From: a virus
Direction: 5' to 3' (one strand)
Virus record (IMG/VR): IMGVR_UViG_3300030430_004365
Span: 1-25,380 of that record
Length of the DNA: 25,380 bases
Part shown: positions 9,268 through 23,369 of the stretch, in pieces
How the letters are laid out: each line of letters starts with the position of its first letter
Position numbering within the stretch: position 1 is the first letter of the stretch
Made by a program: the position numbers and the translations under genes
Notes under the pieces: model-generated
The model's database searches: none
What the model was told of the DNA's origin: nothing
Seen by the model: only the letters and a program-made list of their open reading frames with translations

Positions 9268-12200
9268 ATGGCTCTTAAAGATTCGATTATCAATCTTATC
9301 ATCAAAGGCAAGGACTTGCTGTCTCCGGCCACGAAATCCGCGACCAACAGTGTTGAGGATTTGCAGAAGCGGAGCGAGGCGCTGAGCCGGTCCCTGGCAA
9401 AGCTCACCCAAACCCAGCGCAATATCAAAGAGTTTGAGCGTCTGGGGCGGGAGACAGGCCGCCTGAAGGAGAGCTGGCAAGAAGCGGAATCCGAAGTCAA
9501 GCGGCTCAGTCGTGCTCTGGAAAGCGCCGAGCGCCCAACCAAGGCCATGGCTCGGGAGCTGGAGCGTGCCGAGCGCTCCGCTGAAGAGGCGAAGGCAGCC
9601 TGGGTCCGGAACCGGGAGGCCTTGGATCGTTTGGCGCCGAGGCTCAAAGCGGCTGGTGTTGACATTGCCAAGCTGGATCGTGCCCAGGAAGGGCTTGAGC
9701 AATCATCCCGGCGGCTCCGCTCCGATCTGACCGCCGTCAATACGCAACTCAAGCGTCAGCAGGAAAGCGCCAGAGCGTCAGACAAGGCCATGCGGTCGGC
9801 GGCGAAGGGGGCGGATGGCCTTGCCAGTCACCTTCGCCGGGCGGGCCATCGGATGGTCGCGTTTGTCGCGGCGGCGGTCGGGTTGAACAAAGTTCGCGAA
9901 GCGCTGGTTGCCATTCTGCAAACCGGCGACCGGTTCGAGAAACTGGATCAGCAGCTCACCCAGGTTTTCAACAGCGTTGAAAAAGGCCAGGAGGCGTCGC
10001 GCTGGATACAGGACTTTACGGCCCGCACACCGCTCCAGCTAGAACAGGTATCTCAGGCGTTCATCCGGCTCAAGAACTTCGGCATTGACCCGACCAATGG
10101 CACATTGCAAGCCCTCGTCGATCAGAACGAAGCCATGGGCGGCAGCTTCCAGGATCTTGAAGGCCTGGTGAATGCGCTGGGGCAAGCCTGGGCCAAGCAA
10201 AAATTGCAGGGCGAGGAAATCCTACAGCTGATCGAACGGGGCGTCCCGGTATGGGAACTGCTCGCGCAGGCCACCGGCAAAAACGTGTCGCAACTCCAGG
10301 AGATGTCCTCCGCCGGTGAGTTGGGCCGGGAAACCATCGCTGCGTTGGTTCAGGAGATGGGCAAGGCCAGCGAGGGTGCGGCATCGGCCAGTATGGGGCG
10401 ACTTTCCGGCCTCGTGTCCAACCTAAAGGATCAGTGGGATCAGTTCCTGAACCTGATCGCGCAATCGGGCGCGCTCGATTACGCGAAAGAGCAGTTGCAG
10501 ACGCTGCTGGCTACCATTCAGGAGCTTCGGGAAAACGGAACACTGGCGCGTTGGGCGAAGAACATCAGCGACGGCATTGTCGCCATTGGCGAAACCATCA
10601 AGGGCGCGATTGCGACCGTTGCCGAGTACAAGGATGAACTGCTCCTCCTGGCCAAGGCATTTTTTGCCATCAAGCTCGCTGGCGCGATCAAATCACTGGG
10701 TAACTGGACGGCGGCGCTGCGCTCCTCCCGGGCGGAGATGATGGCTGCTGGCGCGGAGGCGGTGGGCTCGAGCCGTCGTTTGGCGGCGTTTGGTAAGGTG
10801 CTGCGTGGCCTTGCCGGGCCGGTGATGATCACCATCGGCATTGTCGGTTTGCAGGCTGTCATGAAGGGGTTGGACGCAGTCTCGCGAAAGCTGCGCGGTG
10901 TTGAAGACGCCGAGCGGCGCCTGGCGCTCCAGCAAAAGGAAATTGAGCTGCAGCAGCTTAGGGAGATCAACCAGCTCAAGCGAAAGGCCCGCAGCCTGGA
11001 AGAGTATGCCAATGTAGCGCAGCGCACCGGCGCCGACATTGCGGCAATGAGCCAGGACCAGCGCCAGGCCTATGCGGACCAGCTTGATGGAGCCAGGCAA
11101 TACTATGAGTACGCCATCCAGGCGCTCCAGCGTCAGGCCGCCATGGGGCAGGACGTGGCCGGCGAGTTGGCGGCCATGCGGGGCGAGCTGGATCGCGTCA
11201 ATCAGTCCCTGCAAACCGTCTCGGCCGAATCGATCCGGGCCGGTGAGGCGCTGCGCTTGGGAATCACCAAGGCCGCGCTGGATGCGCTTACAACGTTTAC
11301 CCGCCTCAGGTCGGAGGGGGTGGGGGTAGCTGAGGCCCTTCAGAAGTCGTTCGATGCCCTGGATCTGAAAACGCCAGAGGGCATCGACGCCATGGCTCAG
11401 GCGCTGGTCAGCCTGGTGCGCACCGCTCAGGTCAGCGGCGAGCAAGTCAAAGCAGCGTTGACCAAACCCCTGGATGACATGTCTGACGAGGGGCTGTCGC
11501 GTCTGCAGCGTGCGTTTGCTGAGACGCTGGGCGGTCTGCGCGATGAGGCCCGGAACACCGGGCAGGTCATGGACTCAGTGCTGGCCGAAGCATTTTCCCG
11601 CCTCGGGGCGGACCTGACCAAAGCGCAGACCGGCATCACCCAGACCGGAAAGTCCGCCATTGACGCCTTTGGGGTGGTGGTTGAGAACATCCAGCTGGCT
11701 GGACGCTCGGCCACAGAGAACGCAGCCATTCTGAAAGAGGCATTCACCTCGGCCGTACAGAAGGTATCTACCGAAAAAGGCCTGAACTTGCTGGAACAGC
11801 AGCTCAAGGCCGCCGCCGGTCAGGGAGTCGACGTGAGCGATGCCCTGCTGCAGGTACGGGAACGGCTGCGGGAGATTCGCCGGTTACAGCAAGATGGCGA
11901 GAGCGACATCGCCAAGCCGCTCAAAGACACCTCCGCCGCTGCCACCGACGCGGAAAACAAAATCCGCAACATGGCGTCAACCATCGGCGATACCAGTCAA
12001 GCCGCCCAGGAGTTCCGGGAGAAATGGGAAGCAGCCTGGGGCGGAGCCTTTGGTCAGGCGCTCACGAACGCCCGGGAGAAAGTCACCGCACTGTCCACTG
12101 CTGCCCGCAACCTCTTCGAGATGAAAATCGGAGGCAACGCCTTTGTGGACGAAGCCGAGTCCGCGAGCGAAGCCCTGGAGCGTGCCCGCCAGCGCACCGA

Positions 12201-20946: not shown

Positions 20947-21474
20947 TTATCGGCTATTTAGTACTGCTGCCACGGAGTCAGCAGTCCAGTAGGATTTCCC
21001 GTCTAGTGTTGGAATGCCCTCGGACCTGAGCTCTTGAGCGATATCTTCAAAAGAGAGTCCGTCATGATGGAGGCTATGGATCAAATTAACAATCGTTTTT
21101 GTTTGTTCTGCGGTTGCCTTTCGAGGTGTCGCCGTGGTTTTTTTGGGTTCTGGATGACTAGGATGTAGTGCCCTGGAGGCTTTGACATCACGTTGTTTGG
21201 TCAGCTTCACAAGCTGCTCCAAGTGGTTGGCGGACTTGCGGGTGTTTTCCTCTATGTCCAGAAACAGAAGTATGCTTTCTGCTATTGCAATAGAAAATAT
21301 GACGATAACAACTGCGCCCACGATCCAAATAGCTGAGGATTTATCATTATCTCCGAATAGTTGAATAATCCCTATGAATAGCAGTAGCACCCCTACGACA
21401 ATCCCAACTATTTTATTCCAGGTCGCGATGATGCGTAGGGCAGGGTAGTGGTTCTTGGATATTTTGAACGGCAT
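20947..21474 (-). CDS. Two-helix membrane protein with resolvase-like C-terminal segment
   Basis: The 175-residue product has two transmembrane helices (~22-41, ~48-71), a charged stalk (EENTRKSANHLEQLVKLTKQ), a basic Pro/Thr-rich linker (~105-122) and a C-terminal helical unit (~130-175). The unit reads LSFEDIAQELRSEGIPTLDGKSYWTADSVAAVLN. It resembles the helix-turn segment that closes the recombinase domain of large serine recombinases (I-A-x-x-L-x-x-x-G-I-x-T-x-x-G-x-x-W-x-x-x-x-V). The full catalytic domain is absent. The open frame reaches 21639, but GGAGGGG 3 nt before the ATG at 21474 favours the shorter form. It lies 19 bp behind the next gene and probably shares its transcript. Role unknown. 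Confidence 0.7.
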   Translation of the reverse strand: MPFKISKNHYPALRIIATWNKIVGIVVGVLLLFIGIIQLFGDNDKSSAIWIVGAVVIVIFSIAIAESILLFLDIEENTRKSANHLEQLVKLTKQRDVKASRALHPSHPEPKKTTATPRKATAEQTKTIVNLIHSLHHDGLSFEDIAQELRSEGIPTLDGKSYWTADSVAAVLNSR

Positions 21475-21493
21475 AGGCCCCTCCGTAACTCCG

Positions 21494-21946
21494 TTACCGG
21501 TAATAGCTGCTCCAGTCTGAAACGCAGCCATTCCTGAAATATACATAGCTCGATGAGCCGCCTGGATAGTGGTAGGCCCACTGAGTTGAGCGGCCGCTTG
21601 TATTAATGCTGCTTGGTGGTCCCCAGGATCTGCGAACATCCGCCGGTTTCATACCGCGAGTAATCTTGTTCTGGATGATAAGCCTCCGCAACCGGGTGGA
21701 GTTGATATATGGGCAGGGGTCGTTTTTTTGGGCCTTGGGTGAACTGTCTGGCTTGTAGAACTCAACATTTGTTCCGGTATCGAATCTGCCGCCAATGGCA
21801 GGTGCTGGCTTGTGGTCGAGCTCTCTTGCGTCTGAACCGCACGGCTGATCCGAGAAAGCCGTGTGGCCGTCCACCGTGCACTGATACACAGCGGCGTAGA
21901 TGAGGGTGGAGGGGAGTAGAGCGAGCATGAGCAGAGTCCATTTCAT
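21494..21946 (-). CDS. Secreted DUF4124-like protein with OmlA-like C-terminus (cargo gene)
   Basis: The 150-residue product has a signal peptide (MKWTLLMLALLPSTLIYAA, cut near residue 18-19). YQCTVDGHTAFSDQPCGSDA (21-40) matches the short DUF4124 motif found in secreted gammaproteobacterial proteins. The C-terminal ~60 residues (ITRGMKPADVRRSWGPPSSI...TQWAYHY...YVYFRNGCV) match the layout of SmpA/OmlA-type domains. Four cysteines (23, 36, 78, 141) could form two disulfides. A strong AAGGAGG lies 10 nt before the ATG. A perfect TTGACA sits at 21999-22004 (minus) without a well-spaced -10. AT-rich composition, chromosomal-type domains and own orientation suggest lysogenic conversion cargo; envelope function is inferred. 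Confidence 0.75.
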   Translation of the reverse strand: MKWTLLMLALLPSTLIYAAVYQCTVDGHTAFSDQPCGSDARELDHKPAPAIGGRFDTGTNVEFYKPDSSPKAQKNDPCPYINSTRLRRLIIQNKITRGMKPADVRRSWGPPSSINTSGRSTQWAYHYPGGSSSYVYFRNGCVSDWSSYYR

Positions 21947-22066
21947 ATCATATAGACCTCCTTTTCGGCAGATCGTACCTGAGATAACAAGAATCGTGTG
22001 TCAAATTCGGTAAAAAGTATTTTGGGTGCTCCTATAGTGCTCCTAGCTTGCTCTTTTTTCTTGTAA

Positions 22067-22210
22067 CTATTTGTATTTTAAAGATAAAATATAAGTGTTT
22101 ATCCAATCCATCATCGGGGCCACGCAGAAGCGGCGGGAGGGCTCCGAGCCAGGTTTTACGCCGCTTCTCGCGGAATTTCCTGTCTTTTCTGCGTCACCAA
22201 TATAGATCAT
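22067..22210 (-). CDS. 47-codon leader ORF that mimics the DusA N-terminus
   Basis: A minus-strand frame starts at ATG (22208-22210), reads MIYIGDAEKTGN..., continues in frame through RRFCVAPMMDW and ends at TAG (22067-22069). In the free phage it encodes only a short peptide. After recombination in dusA the part upstream of the core would be joined in frame to the rest of the bacterial gene, giving it a new start. No good ribosome binding site precedes the ATG; an AAAGG is about 15 nt away. So expression is uncertain, and another upstream start in the joined gene is possible. Confidence 0.4.
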   Translation of the reverse strand: MIYIGDAEKTGNSARSGVKPGSEPSRRFCVAPMMDWINTYILSLKYK

Positions 22211-22213
22211 TTA

Positions 22214-22242
22214 TTGCCCGTTTTTTACCTTTTTTGTAGTAT
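22214..22242 (+). promoter_or_regulatory. int: Possible int promoter
   Basis: TTGCCC (22214-22219) and TAGTAT (22237-22242) are separated by 17 bp, each matching the sigma-70 consensus at four of six positions. The predicted start, near 22249, falls in the first GTGCTCC heptamer. Binding of integrase or an accessory protein to these repeats could therefore repress int. Prediction only. Confidence 0.4.
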
Positions 22243-22303
22243 CGGTGCTCCAAAAGTGCTCCAAAAAACGGTTTGGAGCACCGGAACAGGGAGTGTGGAG
22301 CAC
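22243..22303 (+). repeat. Heptamer array upstream of int
   Basis: GTGCTCC occurs at 22245-22251 and 22256-22262 (11 bp apart); GGAGCAC occurs at 22275-22281 and 22297-22303 (22 bp apart). The outer arrangement includes a perfect 12-bp inverted repeat (22243-22254 with 22272-22283). The spacing in helical turns puts sites on one DNA face. The last copy ends 1 bp before the int GTG. The same heptamer pair, 11 bp apart, recurs at 22026-22043. Confidence 0.85.
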
Positions 22304-22304
22304 C

Positions 22305-23369
22305 GTGCCTACCATTACTGTTAGAACTCGTGCCGATGGTACCAAGTCGTACCGCGCGGCCATACGAATAAAGCGGAAAGGGAAGATAGTATATCGTGAA
22401 AGCCGAACCTTTGACCGTAAGGCTTTGGCGAAGGATTGGGCTGTCCGGCGGGAGCTGGAGCTCCAGGAGCCCGGAGCGCTGGACAAGGTACGGCATCGGG
22501 GTATTACCATTGGTGATCTCATTAACCGGTACCAGATTGAGTTTGGCGCCGGCTTTGGCCGTAGCAAGTCCAGGGATATGGAGCGCCTGCAGGGTTACGA
22601 CCTGGCAAATCTCGACGCCGTGGAGGTCACCAGTCAGGATTTTGTGGCGCATGTTATGGGGCGGCTGAAAACGGTCAAGCCGCAGACCGCTGCCAATGAC
22701 CTGATTTGGCTTCGAGGTGTTTTCAATACGGCCCGAAGCGCTTGGGGAATACCGGCCGCGCTCGACGCGCTCAACGATGCGGCTGAGACCTGCCGCCGTG
22801 AACGATTGGTGGGTAAGCCGGCACAGCGGAATCGTCGACCGACTCTTGATGAGTTGGAGGCACTGCTGGAATATGGCGAAAGTACGGCATCTCGGCGCGA
22901 AATCCCCATGACCGAGATTATCCTCTTCGCGCTGTTCTCTGCCCGTCGACAGGATGAAATAACCCGAATCCGGTGGGCGGACCTGGATGCCAGAACACAA
23001 AGCGTTGTTGTGCCGGACATGAAGCACCCAAGCCATAAAACCGGCAACAACCGTCGTGTTTACCTGACTGATGAGGCCTGGGCGATCATTCAGCGTCAAC
23101 CAAGAACCGAGGATCGGATTTTTCCATTCAACTCCAAATCAATCAGTGCCCGATTTACGGAGTGGTGCAAGTTCCTGGGCATAGAGGATCTGCATTTTCA
23201 TGATCTGCGGCATGAGTGCATCAGCTGGCTATTCGAGCGGGGATGGGATATTCCCAGGGTTGCTGGGGTGAGCGGGCACACTACCTGGTCATCTCTGCAG
23301 CGATATACCCACCTGAGTCAGAGTGAGCCTCACGATAAATATGACGGCTGGCAATATCGGCCCCAGTAA
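22305..23369 (+). CDS. int: Tyrosine recombinase, phage integrase
   Basis: This catalyses recombination between attP and the bacterial site. Catalytic residues of the family are present (numbering from the GTG start): Arg in SARRQDEI (R215), Lys in HPSHKTGNN (K245), H-D-L-R-H (H299, R302), GH (H325) and the nucleophile Tyr in SLQRYTHL (Y334). An N-terminal arm-binding domain (VPTITVRTRADGTKSYRA, basic KRKGK) and a SAM-like core-binding domain (~70-160) precede the catalytic domain. The frame opens at 22245, but those residues would be encoded by the heptamer array; the family N-terminus begins at the GTG at 22305, with GGAG 4 nt upstream. int reads away from the att core, as in P4-like elements. 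Length (354) is usual. Confidence 0.93.
   Translation: MPTITVRTRADGTKSYRAAIRIKRKGKIVYRESRTFDRKALAKDWAVRRELELQEPGALDKVRHRGITIGDLINRYQIEFGAGFGRSKSRDMERLQGYDLANLDAVEVTSQDFVAHVMGRLKTVKPQTAANDLIWLRGVFNTARSAWGIPAALDALNDAAETCRRERLVGKPAQRNRRPTLDELEALLEYGESTASRREIPMTEIILFALFSARRQDEITRIRWADLDARTQSVVVPDMKHPSHKTGNNRRVYLTDEAWAIIQRQPRTEDRIFPFNSKSISARFTEWCKFLGIEDLHFHDLRHECISWLFERGWDIPRVAGVSGHTTWSSLQRYTHLSQSEPHDKYDGWQYRPQ

Follow-up and report, generated by a model that had tools for sequence, protein, structure and literature searches.

We asked why the beginning of a host gene for tRNA modification, dusA, should lie between phage genes in a viral record, and whether the DNA carrying it was integrated in a chromosome when it was sequenced. 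The window, by which we mean the whole stretch of DNA that was analysed, is an assembled contig of 25,380 b, of class linear. A sequence-only reading of the locus at 22026-22303 had taken minus-strand positions 22103-22141 for the start region of DusA, and the strand indeed reads PSRRFCVAPMMDW over 13 codons before departing from DusA with INTY...; the frame is open from an ATG at 22210, giving a leader of 36 codons (MIYIGDAEK...PSRRFCVAPMMDW). The phage genes that this reading had placed on both flanks are terminase, portal, protease, capsid and tail genes on the left, and a tyrosine integrase gene (int) and a gene for a Bro-N protein on the right. The comparisons reported here make it very probable that the locus is an intact attP, belonging to a temperate Marinobacter phage of the AS1 type; its tyrosine integrase, of the dusA-associated kind, would act by joining arm sites to the core (Table 1).

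Table 1. Features of the proposed attP region, with positions in the window
Feature	Position	Strand	Remark
P-arm heptamer 1, GTGCTCC	22026-22032	+	-77 from core; same place in AS1, L005, L019 and attR of integrated prophages
P-arm heptamer 2, GTGCTCC	22037-22043	+	-66 from core, 11 b after heptamer 1
Degenerate third P-arm copy, TTGCTCT	22048-22054		
att core, CCAATCCATCATCGGGGC	22103-22120	.	Common to attP, attL and attR
Crossover region, CCAATCCATCAT	Inside core, 22103-22120		MMDW codons of dusA
Phage-supplied dusA 5' end (ATG + 35 codons), MIYIGDAEKTGNSARSGVKPGSEPSRRFCVAPMMDW	22103-22210	-	In-frame fusions in L004, L010-L015
Predicted int promoter, TTGCCC-17-TAGTAT	22214-22242	+	Same position relative to core in ten relatives
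P'-arm heptamer 1, direct	22245-22251	+	+142 from core
P'-arm heptamer 2, direct	22256-22262	+	+153 from core
P'-arm heptamer 3, inverted	22275-22281	-	+172 from core
P'-arm heptamer 4, inverted	22297-22303	-	+194 from core; GGAG of this copy stands 4 b ahead of the int start codon, GTG
Tyrosine integrase, 354 aa, dusA-associated type	22305-23369	+	PF00589, 3.7e-22; PHROG integrase

The phage and its integration target

The integrases closest to that of the window come from Marinobacter. Marinobacter phage AS1 (MK088078.1), an isolated phage whose genome paper is Aparna 2019, as cited in PMC8424206, matches the window in gene order and carries an attP of its own in the same place, with a leader of the same type and GTGCTCC arms. 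Its DNA is 81% identical to the window over the first 6.7 kb, its integrase is 85% identical, and the two sequences are collinear across the attP junction. AS1 differs in carrying other genes beside attP and in much of the tail region, and its record leaves the dusA site unannotated.

The suggestion that dusA is the target was borne out by contigs that join phage to dusA: on the attL side of integrated relatives (L004, L010-L015), beside an integrase 67-84% identical to that of the window, a leader of the window's kind continues in frame into the remainder of dusA. The M. maroccanus prophage has cores at 493,902 and 531,788, with attL and attR about 38 kb apart and terminase and tail genes between them. 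Window positions 22025-22141 match its far end and 22102-23342 its integrase end; pieces that adjoin in the window thus lie at opposite prophage ends, and the window lacks the integrated configuration, as had been proposed. The integrase-to-terminase order in M. maroccanus is permuted with respect to the window, and likewise in genomes G002 and G011. When the host sequences flanking the M. maroccanus prophage are joined, they reconstruct an attB that encodes ...PSRRFCVAPMMDWTTSHYRYLAR and is identical to window positions 22103-22138 over 36 of 36 b, the nucleotide identity to a host dusA that the sequence-only reading had asked for. With up to three mismatches, this 36-b site is present in 68 of 124 Marinobacter genomes. 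Within dusA, a direct repeat, CCARTCCATCATNGGNGC, occurs at both attL and attR of the M. maroccanus and M. koreensis prophages.

Integrases that target dusA are, as was already recognized, a described group. Farrugia et al. (2015, PMC4482086) described the dusA-associated integrase family, with its 21-b core and the new 5' end that it gives to dusA. Work on Vibrio islands has demonstrated promoter supply as well as RdfN (Durand et al. 2021, PMC8409611). The elements of Farrugia et al. resemble ours in their target in the dusA 5' end, the replacement 5' end, the int gene adjoining dusA and the presence of prophages among them, and three features of such elements, namely semiconserved end repeats in dusA, a new dusA 5' end and an int 5' end adjoining dusA, were found here, the adjacency being judged from the integrated L004 and L010-L015 and the window itself being un-integrated. 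Excision and circularization, another trait of the family, are represented by the sequence of the attP product. Marinobacter, however, is unmentioned in PMC4482086, and IMEVchUSA3 (PMC8409611) is a mobilizable Vibrio island, not a phage.

Two further records touch on the leader. L053 (genome G047), with a core at 1303, is a Marinobacter dusA whose leader is nearly identical to that of the window over about 100 b and which is accompanied by GTGCTAC arms and a damaged int. In Escherichia phage SKA5 (L135, 1278-1400), the attP leader is annotated as a 'tRNA-dihydrouridine' gene, so a fragment of this sort marks the dusA attP in a phage record.

State of the sequenced DNA

The sequence-only reading had left the DNA as free, circular or tandem, a range that can now be narrowed. 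Base 1 of the window aligns with base 7 of the AS1 virion record, which starts with ACCGTC-CGTGATTT and ends with ...CACCGTC, and therefore the window probably derives from packaged virion DNA; if the start of the AS1 record is a physical end, this suggests that the DNA was packaged in linear form. The tandem arrangement, in which the junction would be the inner hybrid site of two chromosomal prophages with the same local appearance, has a model in Marinobacter genome G092 (C1:1514040-1571631; L040, L054), where two dusA-type integrases lie 56 kb apart on one strand, the first adjoining dusA, the second having something other than dusA on its left; the pair is probably one of tandem elements at a single dusA. 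For the window we consider this arrangement unlikely, given that it starts at base 7 of the virion record, whereas integrated relatives continue unbroken through the matching point. The two G092 integrases are 83% and 40% identical to that of the window, and the second int reads through one TAG.

Heptamers in both arms and their proposed recognition

The arm-like heptamers noticed on both sides of the core were confirmed: all six exact copies of GTGCTCC in the window fall within the 278-b site, whereas about five would be expected over the entire 25,380 b, in scattered positions, and there are exactly two copies of the tandem GTGCTCC-N4-GTGCTCC, one to the left and one to the right of the core. 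A chance origin was rejected on the basis of this clustering, the tandem pairs and the arm pattern in the attP sequences compared below. The same short site is thus repeated in the P and P' arms, as in lambda-type two-arm systems. Lambda likewise has arm-type sites in both arms that are distinct from the core, and its integrase has an N-terminal sheet domain of the kind predicted here; the fold match to lambda Int extends over nearly the whole protein at about 17% identity. Unlike lambda, the window has other heptamers, inverted P' sites at the start of int, and a protein gene with a supplied 5' end as its target. Lambda-type IHF sites between arm and core were searched for in the attP site by consensus with up to one mismatch, with no match, and the Marinobacter bending protein may read another consensus.

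The catalytic residues R215, H299, R302, H325 and Y334 (RHRH/Y) are invariant in 14 aligned relatives. In the structural model of the integrase (mean pLDDT 87, pTM 0.60), residues 3-36 form a three-strand sheet followed by a helix, and its best fold matches include structures of lambda integrase. Heptamer distance between elements, with registers assigned by hand, tracks the distance between integrase residues 3-38 when the catalytic domain is controlled for (partial r 0.51, reached in 0 of 2000 permutations; 0.62 and 3 of 2000 in the Marinobacter set only), part of which could be physical linkage because the N-terminal coding region adjoins the P' arm. The reverse covariation, of the heptamer with the catalytic domain when the N-terminal region is controlled for, was absent. 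Covariation and fold together suggest that the heptamers may be read by the N-terminal domain of the integrase.

Alternatively, the heptamers might be sites for a PrtN/RdfN-like excision factor or a repressor. The direct pairs are 11 b apart, and in other phages direct repeats spaced by one helical turn serve as sites for excision factors, as cited for 186 Apl in PMC7498355; some heptamer sites also overlap the predicted int promoter region. This explanation nevertheless appears improbable, since the same heptamer stands in both arms and varies with the N-terminal domain of the integrase, in an analysis that covered the integrase domains. The gene for the excision factor (prtN/rdfN), which is common but not universal in dusA-associated integrase elements, was found in 6 of 6 relatives tested, AS1 among them, but not in the 25-kb fragment of the window, probably because about 12 kb is absent from it.

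Arm geometry shared by distant dusA phages

To our reading, the arms are what sets this site apart from published ones. We compared 15 attP sequences from several phage lineages, including phages of Pseudomonas, Burkholderia, Rhizobium, Escherichia and Yersinia. On the left side, the copies of the best-scoring P pair are 11-12 b apart, and the pair is found at -75 to -78 in 10 of the 15 sequences and at -55 to -57, two helical turns closer to the core, in the other five. To the right of the core the P heptamer repeats directly, at +140 to +142 in 10/15, and inverted copies precede int. Among 200 dinucleotide shuffles of each sequence, none reached the observed score in 12 of the 15 and one did so in a further sequence; the weakest P-arm pairs, those of CSP3 and DC1, were equalled by 6 and 9 shuffles. 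Spellings differ across elements (GTGCTCC, GTGCTAC, TTGCTAC, GTGGTAA, GTGGTAC, GTACACC and others) and can differ within one, the outer P site still being GTGCTCC in several GTGCTAC elements. Pairing P and P' arms across phages gives a soft control, since several of the spellings resemble one another, and L017-L020, which are int fragments only, were used for the upstream site alone.

When viral contigs were scanned for the P-arm pair, the hits included L005, an independent contig which, like AS1, has the same attP structure and the same arm spacing across the junction, so that an assembly join of unrelated phage pieces, conceivable for an assembled contig of class linear, is extremely improbable. 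Two other contigs from the scan, L139 and L140, have no dusA core beside the pair and were taken as chance matches.

We lean, with some reserve, towards a reading in which the attP geometry of dusA integrases is fixed even in distant phages (P copies 11-12 b apart, placed at -77 or -56, direct P' sites in most cases starting near +141, and inverted P' sites at the start of int), while the heptamer would be an interchangeable, element-specific spelling read by the N-terminal domain and the P' sites would double as an operator of int. The shared geometry with differing spellings appears to be undescribed, in agreement with the earlier impression that the arm layout was new: arm sites are not described, and the word 'arm' is absent, in both PMC4482086 and PMC8409611, and no report joining dusA with arm-type sites was found in the open-access literature searched. 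The kind of site and the dusA 5' replacement are known, and the arm layout with its changing spelling is the part worth following.

Two observations concern variation around int. In M. xestospongiae, L012 and L019 have a common leader upstream of int, MIENQPQKTAANS..., with different arm heptamers (GTCCTCC and GTGCTCC, respectively) and different integrase N-termini, as though an int/P' module had been swapped close to the promoter of int. In a branch consisting of L014, L015, L020, L042 and L043, an insertion of about 240-270 b separates the P' heptamers from the start of int, and transcription of int must therefore differ there.

A model for integration and int control

A generic promoter and terminator scan of 21900-22400 gave no signal above chance; the int promoter in Table 1 is predicted because its position is conserved in relatives. 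The first P' heptamer begins two bases after the predicted -10. As the P' heptamers lie between this promoter and the int start, integrase bound there would probably also lower its own expression, which makes autoregulation of int plausible.

In the model that we propose, integrase would form a bridge between the core and the arm heptamers, of which P holds two and P' four (two direct, two inverted), and would recombine CCAATCCATCAT of attP with the MMDW codons of host dusA. Integration would put the P side at attR, and int, the P' arm and the leader at attL, where the phage start codon with its 35 codons, and presumably a phage promoter too, would replace the displaced dusA start and might restore DusA activity.

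An integration target is thus identified for a Marinobacter phage group that includes the isolate AS1, and a testable map of arm sites is offered for a widespread integrase family whose published descriptions end at the 21-b core. Since its arm positions are fixed and its heptamers variable, the dusA family could be a natural test set for DNA reading by arm-binding domains, and also for the ways in which elements might remain distinct although they use a single chromosomal site.

Elsewhere in the window, two minus-strand genes between the tail genes and attP (20947-21946) encode a DUF4124 protein and a membrane protein that weakly matches a Recombinase domain; the genes in this slot are different in AS1, and it therefore looks like a cargo site. 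ARAGORN called a tRNA-Arg (ccg) at 9540-9625 (+), inside the tape measure gene, which is possibly a false call.
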